DNA of 64,000 nucleotides from [Synechococcus] sp. NIES-970 (GTDB lineage Bacteria > Cyanobacteriota > Cyanobacteriia > Cyanobacteriales > MRBY01), in contig AP017959.1 of the NCBI GenBank assembly GCA_002356215.1, positions 186,001 to 250,000 of the forward strand. Direction: 5' to 3'. Below the pieces are notes generated by a model that worked only from the letters and a program-made list of their open reading frames with translations, made no database searches and was not told where the DNA came from. Every line of letters starts with the position of its first letter. Within the stretch, counting starts at the first letter, position 1. Below, in pieces: positions 45,277-49,031 of this stretch. The position numbers were made by a program, and so were the translations under genes.

Positions 45277-46026
45277 GTGAAAAAACTTATTCGCGGTCTG
45301 GACAAATTTAAGCAAAATTACGTGGCGAGTCACCATGACCTCCTCGAGCAGCTTTCCCACGGCCAGAAGCCCCGCGTCCTCTTCATCTGCTGTTCTGACT
45401 CCCGCGTCGATCCGGCCCTAATCACCCAAACCGACATTGGGGAACTGTTCGTCATTCGCAACGCAGGTAACATCATTCCCCCCTATGGTGCAGCCAATGG
45501 CGGTGAAGGGGGAACCCTCGAATATGCCCTCCAAGGTTTAGATATTCGTCAAATTATTGTCTGTGGTCACTCCCACTGTGGCGCGATGAAAGGCTTGCTG
45601 AAACTCGATAAACTGCAAGCGGATATGCCCTTGGTTTGTGATTGGCTCAAGCATGCTGAAGCGACCCGTCGTCTCGTACGCGATACCTATCCCCACTGTG
45701 AAGGGGAAGAGCTCGTAGAAACCCTCGTGGCAGAAAATGTCCTCGTCCAAATTGACAATCTCAAGACTTACCCCATTGTGCGATCGCGCCTGCACCAGGG
45801 TAAATTAAAAATTTATGGCTGGATTTACAACATCGAAAACGGTGAAGTGCTTGCCTATGACGAAGCCCGTCATGCCTATGTCAAGCCTGACTACAGCCTC
45901 ATTGATGAAAAACCACTCCAGGAGCATGAACCCCCTGAAGGCTGCCCGATTCCCTATGTAATACCTGCTACTTCTAGCCTTTCAGCATGGTATGGCGAGG
46001 GTGATACCTTCTCTGTCAGTGGCTGA
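45277..46026 (+). CDS. ccaA: Beta-class carbonic anhydrase
   Basis: Interconverts CO2 and bicarbonate. 249 residues, GTG start. Zinc ligands Cys39, His98 and Cys101 and the Asp41/Arg43 pair (CCSDSR; CGHSHCGAMKG) are present. YGAANGGEG and DWLKHAEATRRLV are very close to the cyanobacterial CcaA/IcfA type that works in carboxysomes. The C-terminal extension, which in Synechocystis CcaA runs to about 274 residues, is shorter here, so carboxysomal targeting is uncertain. Confidence 0.92.
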   Translation: MKKLIRGLDKFKQNYVASHHDLLEQLSHGQKPRVLFICCSDSRVDPALITQTDIGELFVIRNAGNIIPPYGAANGGEGGTLEYALQGLDIRQIIVCGHSHCGAMKGLLKLDKLQADMPLVCDWLKHAEATRRLVRDTYPHCEGEELVETLVAENVLVQIDNLKTYPIVRSRLHQGKLKIYGWIYNIENGEVLAYDEARHAYVKPDYSLIDEKPLQEHEPPEGCPIPYVIPATSSLSAWYGEGDTFSVSG

Positions 46027-46772
46027 GGGCCATATTTCTTAAGCCTCAAAACCAATGACTATTGAATTTTAACTGGTGGGGGATTCGAGCCCCTGGAAAT
46101 CGCATATCTCTCTTTTGCTATGGTTGACCCCAACTTCGGATGAGCGTTGGGAGGATGTAACGGGGAAGTAAAGCTTGGGCATCCTGCGGGACGGTGGTAT
46201 GTCTTGCAAAAAATTTTCCAAAAATACCGAAAACGAAGACTCGGCCATTGGTGAGCTCCCGACCCCTAAATCCGGCAAATTAAAGAACATTCTCTTCGGA
46301 TTTGGCCGCGTTCTCTCTTTTTCCGAAGTCTCCAAGCGAAGCCACTTTTTGGTGCTGAAAAATAATCTTACTGTTTGAGATAGTACAAACATTCTGCATT
46401 AATGAGCATAATGCCAAATTTTTACTCTTGTTTAGGGAAGCGATCGCCTATATCGTCAAATTTTTGAGGGATGAAGAACATCACTCACCAGGAACATTTT
46501 GGGGTTAGTGCTGTCTTGATTGTTTCTCTTAGGAAAAAACCGGAGTCTGGGTTTTCTTTGGGGTGTTTTTGAAAGGCTTAACCTACAAAAACTTTTTCTT
46601 AATATTTTCTGGCAACTTTTTACCTAAAGAAATCGTCCTAAAGCCTACTCAAATCTAGCAATAGTTATTGAACTTAAGTATTTTTTAAGTAAGAAAGAAT
46701 AGCATTGGTGCTAGGGTGAAGATAATTCGAAAAATACAGATGTATTTATGTAAACTAGAGGAGAAAAATAAA
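46027..46772. other. Gene-free stretch of about 745 bp
   Basis: No convincing gene. Open frames of 67 and 107 codons overlap on opposite strands (46175-46378 and 46069-46392) and lack ribosome sites and recognisable motifs. A tRNA T-arm-like sequence on the minus strand (GGGGCTCGAATCCCC, near 46083-46098) has no matching acceptor or D arm. ACTTAA / TTAAGT (46672-46690) is a small inverted repeat upstream of the SLH gene. The last 300 bases are AT-rich and may carry a promoter. Confidence 0.6.
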
Positions 46773-48029
46773 ATGTCCAACCCAAGAAAGTTTCGTCAAT
46801 CCACAGCCCTTCTATTAGCCTTAAGCCTTGGATTCGGCACAACTATTCCTTTCCAAGGTTCTTTATTACAGCCCGCTGCGGTCGTCGCCCAAACCAATCA
46901 ATTCCCTGATGTTTCCAGTAACTATTGGGCCGCAGGGTTTATCAATGAACTGGTAAATCGGGGCGTCATTGCGGGGTTTCCCGATGGCTCTTTTCGTCCT
47001 GATGCACCAGTAACACGGGCTCAATTTGCAGCCATGGTTCAAAAAGCTTTGCCAAAAAGCACAAACCGAAATGCGATCGCCTTTGGCGATGTACCGAGTA
47101 GTTATTGGGCCTTTACGGCGATTAACAACGCCTACGAAATGGGATTTCTTTCGGGTTATCCAGGGCAAGTATTTCGACCTGAACAAAACATTCCCCGGGA
47201 ACAGGTCTTGGTCGCCCTAGCAAATGGTTTAAACTACACGCCTCGCAATGATACGAACACGACGTTAGGCTATTACCGTGACAGCGGCAGTATCGCAGAT
47301 TTTGCCCGGAGCCCGATCGCCGCAGCGACAGAACGCCGGATGGTTGTGAACTACTCAGATCTTCAGCAACTCAACCCCAAACGTAATGCAACACGGGCAG
47401 AGGTTGCCGCTTTTATCTACCAGGCGCTCCTTTCCCAAAATCAGGTACAGGCGATTAATTCCCCTTACATCGTTGCCCAGGATGTGGTGGCAGTAGATTA
47501 TCGCATTAATGCTGGAACGATCATTCCCATCAGTTATAAGGCTGACAAAATTTTATTGATGCGGGACGAGACCGCACCGGTCACCTTGACAGTTGATGCC
47601 AATATTGTGAATAACCAAGGGGTTGTTTTGATTCCCCAGGGGAGTGAAATTCGAGGGGAGTTCCGGCCGTCGGGCAATGGCACTCGCTTTGTGGCCCAAC
47701 AGTTAAATCTGCCTAATGGCCAAACCTACTCAGTCAATGCAACGTCTCAGGTGATTACTGAAACTGAAAGTGTGACCCGGGGCATGGAGCTGGACGGTTT
47801 GTTAAGAAATGCAGTTCTAGGGACAGGGGCAGCGGCGGCGATCTCTGCTGTTACCGGAGACCGGGCGATCGCCACAGAAGAACTACTCATCGGTGCTGGG
47901 GCCGGAATCTTAGCGACCCTAATCCCGCAGTTCTTGGGCCTCAATCGGGTTGATCTGTTAGTCGTAGAAACGAATACGGATCTTGACCTCACCCTAAACA
48001 ATGATCTTGTGCTCCGAGTTAATCCCTAA
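46773..48029 (+). CDS. Secreted SLH-domain protein with VirB10/TrbI-like C-terminal region
   Basis: 418 residues from the ATG at 46773, preceded by a strong AGAGGAG; the frame is open 57 nt further. A signal peptide (1-39, cleavage after VVA) is followed by SLH repeats at about 44-93 (FPDVSSNYWAAGFINEL), 104-153 (FGDVPSSYWAFTAINNA) and a degenerate third at 168-220. The rest is not a porin: NAGTIIPISY, VVLIPQGSEIRGEF, RFVAQQLNLPNGQTY and a Gly/Ala hydrophobic helix (about 345-385) look like the C-terminal domain of VirB10/TrbI proteins. It is likely anchored to peptidoglycan and reaches the outer membrane. Confidence 0.85.
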   Translation: MSNPRKFRQSTALLLALSLGFGTTIPFQGSLLQPAAVVAQTNQFPDVSSNYWAAGFINELVNRGVIAGFPDGSFRPDAPVTRAQFAAMVQKALPKSTNRNAIAFGDVPSSYWAFTAINNAYEMGFLSGYPGQVFRPEQNIPREQVLVALANGLNYTPRNDTNTTLGYYRDSGSIADFARSPIAAATERRMVVNYSDLQQLNPKRNATRAEVAAFIYQALLSQNQVQAINSPYIVAQDVVAVDYRINAGTIIPISYKADKILLMRDETAPVTLTVDANIVNNQGVVLIPQGSEIRGEFRPSGNGTRFVAQQLNLPNGQTYSVNATSQVITETESVTRGMELDGLLRNAVLGTGAAAAISAVTGDRAIATEELLIGAGAGILATLIPQFLGLNRVDLLVVETNTDLDLTLNNDLVLRVNP

Positions 48030-48203: not shown

Positions 48204-49031
48204 ATGCTCCCGTTGCTGCAACAGTCCGGCTTAATGGCGATCGCCTTTTGCTTTCTCTTCATTTGGGGTGCTTGTTTCGGTAGCTTTCTCAACGTAGTGG
48301 TCTACCGTGTCCCAGCGGGGCTGTCCCTATGGCATCCTCCGTCTCGCTGTCCCCACTGCGGTCATCAACTGGGCGCGCGGGAAAATATTCCAGTATTAGG
48401 CTGGCTGACTTTGGGGGGGAAATGCCGCTGGTGCAAAGGGCCCATTTCACCACGCTACCCCCTTGTGGAGGTTCTAATGGGCTTACTATGCGTGATCACG
48501 GTGGCCCAGTTTGGTCTGACCCTAGAGGCGATCGCGGGGTTTACTTTGCTCTTTTGGCTCGTGGCCCTCGCTCTGATCGATCTCGACACCTTGACGTTAC
48601 CCAATGCTTTGACCCAATCGGGTCTGGGGTTGGGTTTACTGTTTCAAGTCGCCCTCGGCTGGCGCGAGAATGGCCTCAACGGAGCGATTCATTTGGCGAT
48701 CGCCGGGATAGGGGCGGCGGTCTTGGGAATCTGGCTCTTAGACGTTATCGGAGTCGTGGGCTCTGCTCTCTTGGGTCAGGAAGCTATGGGGGGAGGGGAT
48801 CCAAAATTATTGGCGATGATTGGCGCTTGGCTCGGCTGGCAAAATGTTTTACTGACGGTCGTGCTCGCCTGTGGTTTTGGGACGGTGATCATTGGTAGCG
48901 CCCTAGGTTTAGGAAAGCACCAACGCCAGCAGCCATTGCCCTTTGGCCCCTTTCTCGCTTTAGGGGCGGTGATGGGTTTATTTTGGGGCGATCGCCTCAT
49001 TGCCCTCTATTTAAATACGTTTGCGGGATGA
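48204..49031 (+). CDS. pilD: Type IV prepilin peptidase / N-methyltransferase
   Basis: Membrane aspartyl protease that cleaves and methylates type IV pilins. 275 residues. The N-terminal zinc domain has two CxxC pairs (CPHCGHQLG; CRWCKGPIS). The second catalytic Asp is in MGGGDPKLLAMIGAWLG, the first in LIDLDTLTLP. Seven or eight membrane helices. It serves pilus assembly and fits the Pil-type chemosensory operon a few kilobases on. Confidence 0.96.
   Translation: MLPLLQQSGLMAIAFCFLFIWGACFGSFLNVVVYRVPAGLSLWHPPSRCPHCGHQLGARENIPVLGWLTLGGKCRWCKGPISPRYPLVEVLMGLLCVITVAQFGLTLEAIAGFTLLFWLVALALIDLDTLTLPNALTQSGLGLGLLFQVALGWRENGLNGAIHLAIAGIGAAVLGIWLLDVIGVVGSALLGQEAMGGGDPKLLAMIGAWLGWQNVLLTVVLACGFGTVIIGSALGLGKHQRQQPLPFGPFLALGAVMGLFWGDRLIALYLNTFAG

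Follow-up and report, generated by a model that had tools for sequence, protein, structure and literature searches.

Porins of the OmpM/SomA type carry a single S-layer homology (SLH) domain, and S-layer proteins form a two-dimensional surface lattice. Two papers describe the cyanobacterial phylum as lacking the classical tethers, among them Pal and Braun's lipoprotein (PMC10628300, PMC8707739). In the type IV secretion system (T4SS), the outer-membrane cap consists of 14 VirB10 two-helix antennae around a central opening (PMC4182333). Here we describe a protein that joins elements of these systems: three SLH domains followed by a predicted VirB10-like domain. Its gene lies in a 64,000-nucleotide stretch of [Synechococcus] sp. 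NIES-970 (contig AP017959.1, positions 186,001 to 250,000), hereafter the window. We propose that the product is a secreted tether between outer membrane and peptidoglycan in which a VirB10-type part replaces the usual porin barrel; we put the probability of this reading at about two in three. The features concerned, in window coordinates, are:

46773..48029, + strand: gene for the SLH and VirB10-like protein, 418 residues plus stop (open reading frame)
46773..46892, + strand: predicted signal peptide, about residues 1-40, with hydrophobic core 11-27 and AVVA-QT (hydropathy; predicted local distance difference test score, pLDDT, below 50 at residues 8-39; cleavage site by eye)
46902..47423, + strand: SLH triplet spanning roughly residues 44-217, its outer limits set by eye (Pfam, structure, conservation)
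47487..48026, + strand: VirB10-like C-terminal domain, residues 239-418 (AlphaFold2, Foldseek, VIA-align, weak Pfam TrbI and NCBIfam VirB10 matches)
47805..47939, + strand: hydrophobic hairpin rich in Gly and Ala, residues 345-389, located where VirB10 has its antenna (model, hydropathy, conservation, weak glycine-zipper matches)
46757..46763, + strand: Shine-Dalgarno-like AGAGGAG, nine bases 5' of the ATG (read in the sequence)

Predicted fold of the C-terminal domain and its SLH partner

The original prediction described an SLH protein whose C-terminal half resembles VirB10/TrbI, and set a test beforehand: structure prediction of residues 225-418 against TrbI/VirB10, with the lack of a structural match named as the contrary outcome. 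A match was found, and in the predicted models all strong structural neighbours of this region are T4SS cores or ComB10, which bears out the resemblance. AlphaFold2 modelled the whole protein with a pLDDT of 85.3 (82-row alignment) and the C-terminal domain alone with 83.6 (81-row alignment). When this domain was compared with the PDB by Foldseek, 13 of 13 matches at E<=0.001 were T4SS core-complex or ComB10 entries (best E: Xanthomonas core 7.1e-7, TrwE O-layer 1.2e-6, ComB10 3.1e-6), the remainder including CagY, F-plasmid and Dot/Icm complexes; the next match was at 0.034. With VIA-align, T4SS and ComB10 chains gave Z-scores of 11.1 to 7.3 for the domain alone, the next, unrelated chain scoring 3.3. 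For the whole model SLH structures ranked at the top, followed by T4SS core and ComB10 chains at Z 11.2 to 7.6 (T4SS neighbours: TrwE, Xanthomonas, CagY, pKM101 3jqo, F-plasmid, Dot/Icm); one SLH cytochrome (Z 9.1) was interspersed among the T4SS chains, and the best-scoring chain outside the SLH and T4SS sets had 3.5. In these comparisons the VirB10-type chain is named as such by the entry for CagY, ComB10 and TrwE, and was elsewhere identified from residue numbers and titles. As a prediction from models, a VirB10 outer-membrane fold is close to certain for the C-terminal domain.

The motifs from which the resemblance was first suspected are all present: GTIIP at residues 248-252, LIPQGSEIRGEF at 286-297, LPNG at 313-316 and the Gly/Ala hydrophobic region at 345-389. 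In the family alignment P288 is kept in 81 of 82 rows, and G295, G350, T361, G362 and G374 in all 82; these residues are therefore conserved and not chance resemblances. The motifs run GT-IP, VLIP-GS-I-GE, LPNG, then the hydrophobic hairpin and finally a TDLDL strand, and the sequence of R751 TrbI reads in the same order (GFVVPA, LLIPQGSRLVGSY, FPDG, KDMTF). The hairpin helices are modelled at residues 351-361 and 377-387, mean hydropathy is positive for both hairpin segments in 82/82 rows, and the glycine-zipper model YiaD matches 11 members of a 12-member family sample (best 4e-4). In that sample Pfam TrbI matches four members (best 5.3e-4) and NCBIfam VirB10 six (best 0.0016); for the C-terminal part of the window's own protein, NCBIfam VirB10 gives a weak E of 0.047. 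When the single R751 TrbI sequence was compared with the family profile by hhalign, 84 columns in the first half were aligned, at E 5.4e-5 and a probability of 67%.

Several results weigh against this assignment. TM-scores by query length are a modest 0.33-0.49 in Foldseek, and so the fold is common but its parts are differently placed; the root-mean-square deviation is 5-6 Å for several of the VIA-align domain matches. The second half of the hairpin (residues 361-390) is modelled with block pLDDT of 51-71, and at 11 residues its helices are short for a membrane. Pfam listed no TrbI match for the full-length protein, and on residues 225-418 TrbI is the sole match, with E 0.0077 and 16.5 bits against a cutoff of 35; among ten scanned relatives it is absent at E<=1 in four, namely L002, which is the short paralogue of the window's genome, and three diverged SLH forms (L147, L149, L150). 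By hhalign, cyanobacterial T4SS VirB10s align with the family over only 57 columns (7e-5, 63%), and R388 TrwE reaches 0.034 with a probability of 1.5%. Thus the comparison with TrbI/VirB10 at the level of profile hidden Markov models points in the same direction as the fold, but weakly and below cutoff. A 12-row profile search of the sequences of solved structures returned two chance matches only, and sequence alone is therefore insufficient to settle the fold. We regard homology of the C-terminal domain to VirB10/TrbI as likely, a conclusion for which the sequence evidence alone falls short of proof.

The identification as an SLH protein is firm: Pfam PF00395 matches three stretches of the full-length protein (E 4.7e-32), and this part of the model superimposes on the Sap SLH structure 3pyw with a VIA-align Z-score of 19.7. 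R82, R142, R208, W52 and W112 are conserved in 60/60 SLH rows of the family alignment; arginine and tryptophan are the SLH residue types that bind the pyruvate and sugar of pyruvylated wall polymer (PMC10628300). Predicted domains and conserved residues together correspond to SLH domains with a pyruvate-binding arginine, and a pyruvyl-transferase gene is present in the genome (PF04230, E 7.4e-35). SLH triplets much like this one, with a similar tail, also stand at the C-terminus of proteins that look by eye like beta-helices (L168 436-2121; L169 1501-3138, minus strand; L170 1495-3147, minus strand), and the triplet therefore acts as a movable module.

By hydropathy there is no inner-membrane helix with a cytoplasmic N-terminus, the sole N-terminal hydrophobic stretch being the signal-peptide-like segment 11-27. 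The reach of the protein would therefore be from peptidoglycan to outer membrane only, and the earlier description of it as envelope-spanning was too strong.

Distribution, paralogues and the solitary state

The domain was found at E<=0.001 in 104 of 292 sampled genomes of the phylum. Among the 150 matches listed, which cover 97 of the 104 genomes, at least 55 genomes have a long frame (>=350 residues, the length of the SLH form), at least 85 a short one and at least 43 both; in at least 22, long and short frames lie within 6 kb of each other. Within the best 80 of at least 214 loci, a short SLH-less paralogue lies upstream on the same strand in 31, some loci ending at contig ends. The window's genome departs from this arrangement, which tells against our interpretation: its SLH form and short paralogue (40% identity over residues 245-412) are far apart and not in tandem. 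Another short paralogue aligns with SLH forms by BLAST at 36-46% over about 40 residues. The two forms look as if the SLH triplet had been gained or lost between the signal peptide and the VirB10-like domain. In one tandem pair (L164 470-1162 and 1480-2742) the paralogues are, by eye, alike in the N-terminal signal region.

For the structure of the whole protein, 59 of the 80 loci contributed an SLH row and 22 of the 31 SLH-less frames were included (alignment A2), 21 loci whose frames were truncated, exceptionally long or almost duplicates having been removed by hand, with no set criterion; the domain alignment (A3) draws on 58 of the 80 together with those 22 SLH-less frames. When 55 rows chosen by hand were placed in a tree, one branch (94/96, just below starred) separated the 24 main SLH forms, and another (98/91, starred) separated 15 of the 16 short forms. 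The sixteenth is a long branch, and all 16 group at only 70/55. This split between main SLH and short forms fits an old duplication. The tree needs at least four changes of SLH state, and diverged SLH forms L147-L150 fall outside both groups, their placement unresolved. Three of these (L147 977-2332, minus strand; L148 491-1885; L149 504-1880; families f23 and f24) have, by eye, an apparently doubled Gly/Ala hairpin.

In family f31, from another class of the same phylum, five long frames were fetched (L142-L146). Pfam finds SLH and a weak TrbI in each of L142-L145, and L146 has no SLH by eye; a short f31 protein, L126, lies above the TrbI cutoff (37.4 against 35). Two of the SLH-bearing frames (L142 850-2016, minus strand; L144 512-1693) appear by eye to be without the hydrophobic hairpin. 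An hhalign comparison of the f31 forms in alignment A5 gives a probability of 97.7% (E 1.8e-12) with the cyanobacterial domain, against 1% with the cyanobacterial T4SS VirB10s; in the tree the f31 rows are set apart by long branches and carry a long-branch warning. At the level of sequence, then, the SLH fusion is recurrent across Cyanobacteriia and, in diverged form, in the sister class, often behind a tandem SLH-less paralogue. A domain of 61% identity (L069 286-765) comes from a record labelled Candidatus Gracilibacteria, which is probably a misbinned cyanobacterial contig.

That the protein is solitary, as first proposed, is supported by the lack of any match at E<=10 to VirB9 (PF03524), TrbI/VirB10 (PF03743) or VirB4 (PF03135) in the genome, which is 99.99% complete; each of these models scored above cutoff in at least one control genome. 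One VirB8 match of 9.8 bits was below a cutoff that no control genome passed, and the VirB8 result is therefore uninformative. PF03743 also missed the window's protein and its short paralogue, so that a very divergent T4SS could escape such a search. When the C-terminal domain was compared with 72,556 plasmid records, no match was found at E<=0.1. T4SS-type VirB10s are present in other cyanobacteria, many on plasmids, and the 12 that were aligned all match TrbI (best 6.6e-18), the set having been collected with the TrbI model. One chromosome-sized contig (G091, C3) carries four TrbI/VirB10 matches above the Pfam cutoff, hinting at repeated integrated conjugative elements. We do not favour the idea that the window's protein is a leftover of a conjugation system, because VirB4 and VirB9 matches are missing from the genome at E<=10, the plasmid records give no match at E<=0.1 and the family is spread across the phylum.

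The reading frame runs from ATG 46773 to a stop at 48027-48029 and encodes 418 residues; further in-frame starts lie upstream, for example GTG 46716. A promoter and terminator scan gave no matches above those in shuffled sequences. Of the neighbouring genes that were scanned, the closest encode a carbonic anhydrase (45277-46026, + strand) and a prepilin peptidase (48204-49031, + strand), and we therefore draw no functional link. Beside the 80 relatives, the commonest neighbour families occur at 44, 42, 36, 32 and 26 loci, every one of them downstream; three are nearly always on the opposite strand and two (42 and 26 loci) on the same strand. The commonest, at 44 loci, is by eye a histidine kinase.

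Anabaena All3983 and All3984

A relative of this protein appears already to have been studied under another name. In PMC12548389, All3983 of Anabaena sp. PCC 7120 is called 'a predicted S-layer protein'; its SLH domains span 21-84, 85-144 and 146-210, and it was detected in purified outer membrane. An all3983 mutant grows more slowly at low calcium while its calcium uptake is only slightly lower, and the all3983 promoter is raised under calcium lack in an alr2269 mutant (PMC12548389); all3983 also belongs to a set of 14 genes that are lowered in a sigG mutant (PMC4390870). The all3984 protein has 231 residues (PMC2823733) and is labelled 'Conjugal transfer protein TrbI' (PMC8147232). By gene number the two are neighbours, as expected from the tandem pair at 31 of 80 loci. 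Their likeness to the pair described here thus comprises neighbouring gene numbers, an N-terminal SLH triplet, a length of 231 residues and the TrbI label.

In a related group of genomes (g6), the full-length SLH form is found at >=86% identity in 12 of 13 genomes. Nine of these 12 loci have a short paralogue no more than 1.5 kb upstream, one of which is of 231 residues; one of the other three loci ends at a contig end. SLH repeats in one g6 genome start at 39, 99 and 162, with the last motif ending at 215: a spacing like that of All3983, up to 18 residues off the published limits. All3983 is thus very probably the orthologue of the SLH and VirB10-like protein, and All3984 that of its SLH-less paralogue, judging by gene numbers, SLH positions and descriptions. 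Two points count the other way: the assignment draws on such descriptions rather than on the sequence of All3983, and one source labels all3984 'Predicted ATP-dependent protease' (PMC4365693). That All3983 could be another triple-SLH protein of g6 is not favoured, because the three that were read carry their SLH domains at the C-terminus, whereas those of All3983 lie within 21-210.

The main text of PMC12548389 contains none of the terms 'TrbI', 'VirB10', 'type IV secretion' or 'all3984'. Four TrbI-like proteins are placed in an ancestral cyanobacterial set by PMC3141437, whose main text contains neither 'VirB10' nor 'SLH' and whose relevant passages give no structure or role. It was the only paper found for TrbI with S-layer homology in cyanobacteria, and for VirB10 with an SLH domain there we found none; within this search, which did not cover most subscription papers or any preprints, the VirB10 nature of the protein was not found in print.

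Proposed role and comparison with known systems

We envisage that the three SLH domains would bind pyruvylated polysaccharide attached to peptidoglycan, and that the two-helix hairpin of the VirB10-fold domain would enter the outer membrane. Many copies would most likely assemble into a ring, perhaps together with the SLH-less paralogue. The outer membrane would thereby be tied to the wall, a link on which the cell could depend under conditions that weaken the membrane, such as low calcium. If orthology holds, the location and low-calcium defect of All3983 may carry over to the window's protein.

The original prediction left the choice between channel and tether open, and by inference we favour the tether. 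An open pore for solutes or polymers, with the SLH domains merely an anchor, is an unlikely alternative, though the best placed: the antennae of the T4SS cap do enclose a central opening (PMC4182333), and the hairpin is apparently doubled in relatives L147-L149, but no recurrent neighbour gene indicates a substrate, the genome has no match to a VirB4-type ATPase (pilus genes were not searched), and loss of All3983 lowers calcium uptake only slightly (PMC12548389). Less probable again is a structural subunit of the periplasm or surface, akin to an S-layer protein and not embedded in the outer membrane, with the hairpin providing oligomer contacts. The published name of All3983 (PMC12548389), the low pLDDT of part of the hairpin and the listing of All3984, its presumed SLH-less neighbour, in an exoproteome (PMC4390845) would suit it; however, All3983 is found in purified outer membrane (PMC12548389), although peripheral co-purification is possible, and both hairpin segments are hydrophobic by mean hydropathy in every one of the 82 rows, with G350, G362 and G374 invariant. 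In favour of an ordinary SLH porin of the OmpM/SomA type with a misjudged barrel are matches to NCBIfam iron uptake porin, whose best stretch is SLH sequence (residues 39-93) at 36.8 bits, the cutoff being 100; this reading is rejected as highly improbable, since there is no Pfam porin domain, no C-terminal beta-barrel and a predicted VirB10 fold.

On the tether reading, the portion of a secretion machine that sits in the outer membrane seems able to live alone as a chromosomal envelope protein. The reading also offers a possible mechanism for the unexplained low-calcium phenotype of All3983, and a testable label to replace 'S-layer protein'. More speculatively, and with considerable doubt, the SLH and SLH-less paralogues could form a free-standing, wall-anchored outer-membrane ring of VirB10-type domains, a core component of the envelope dating back to the divergence of Cyanobacteriia from their non-photosynthetic sister class, maybe a precursor state of the T4SS VirB10 cap and not a leftover of it.

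With the C-terminal domain of VirB10/TrbI proteins (TrwE, XcVirB10, CagY, ComB10, TraF, TraB, DotG) the window's protein shares the predicted fold of the whole domain, the motif order and a hydrophobic two-helix hairpin before the last strands. It differs in having SLH domains in place of an inner-membrane helix and proline-rich linker, in the Gly/Ala-zipper-like character of its hairpin, in scoring below the TrbI cutoff and in the lack of a VirB9 or VirB4 match in its genome; a ring of 14-17 copies is a feature of VirB10, whereas here a ring is inferred. With the OmpM/SomA porins it shares a signal peptide, wall-binding N-terminal SLH, a C-terminal outer-membrane part and a presumed tether role, but it has three SLH stretches and a predicted VirB10 fold where the porins have a beta-barrel: it may thus be a second kind of SLH tether, alongside the SLH porins.
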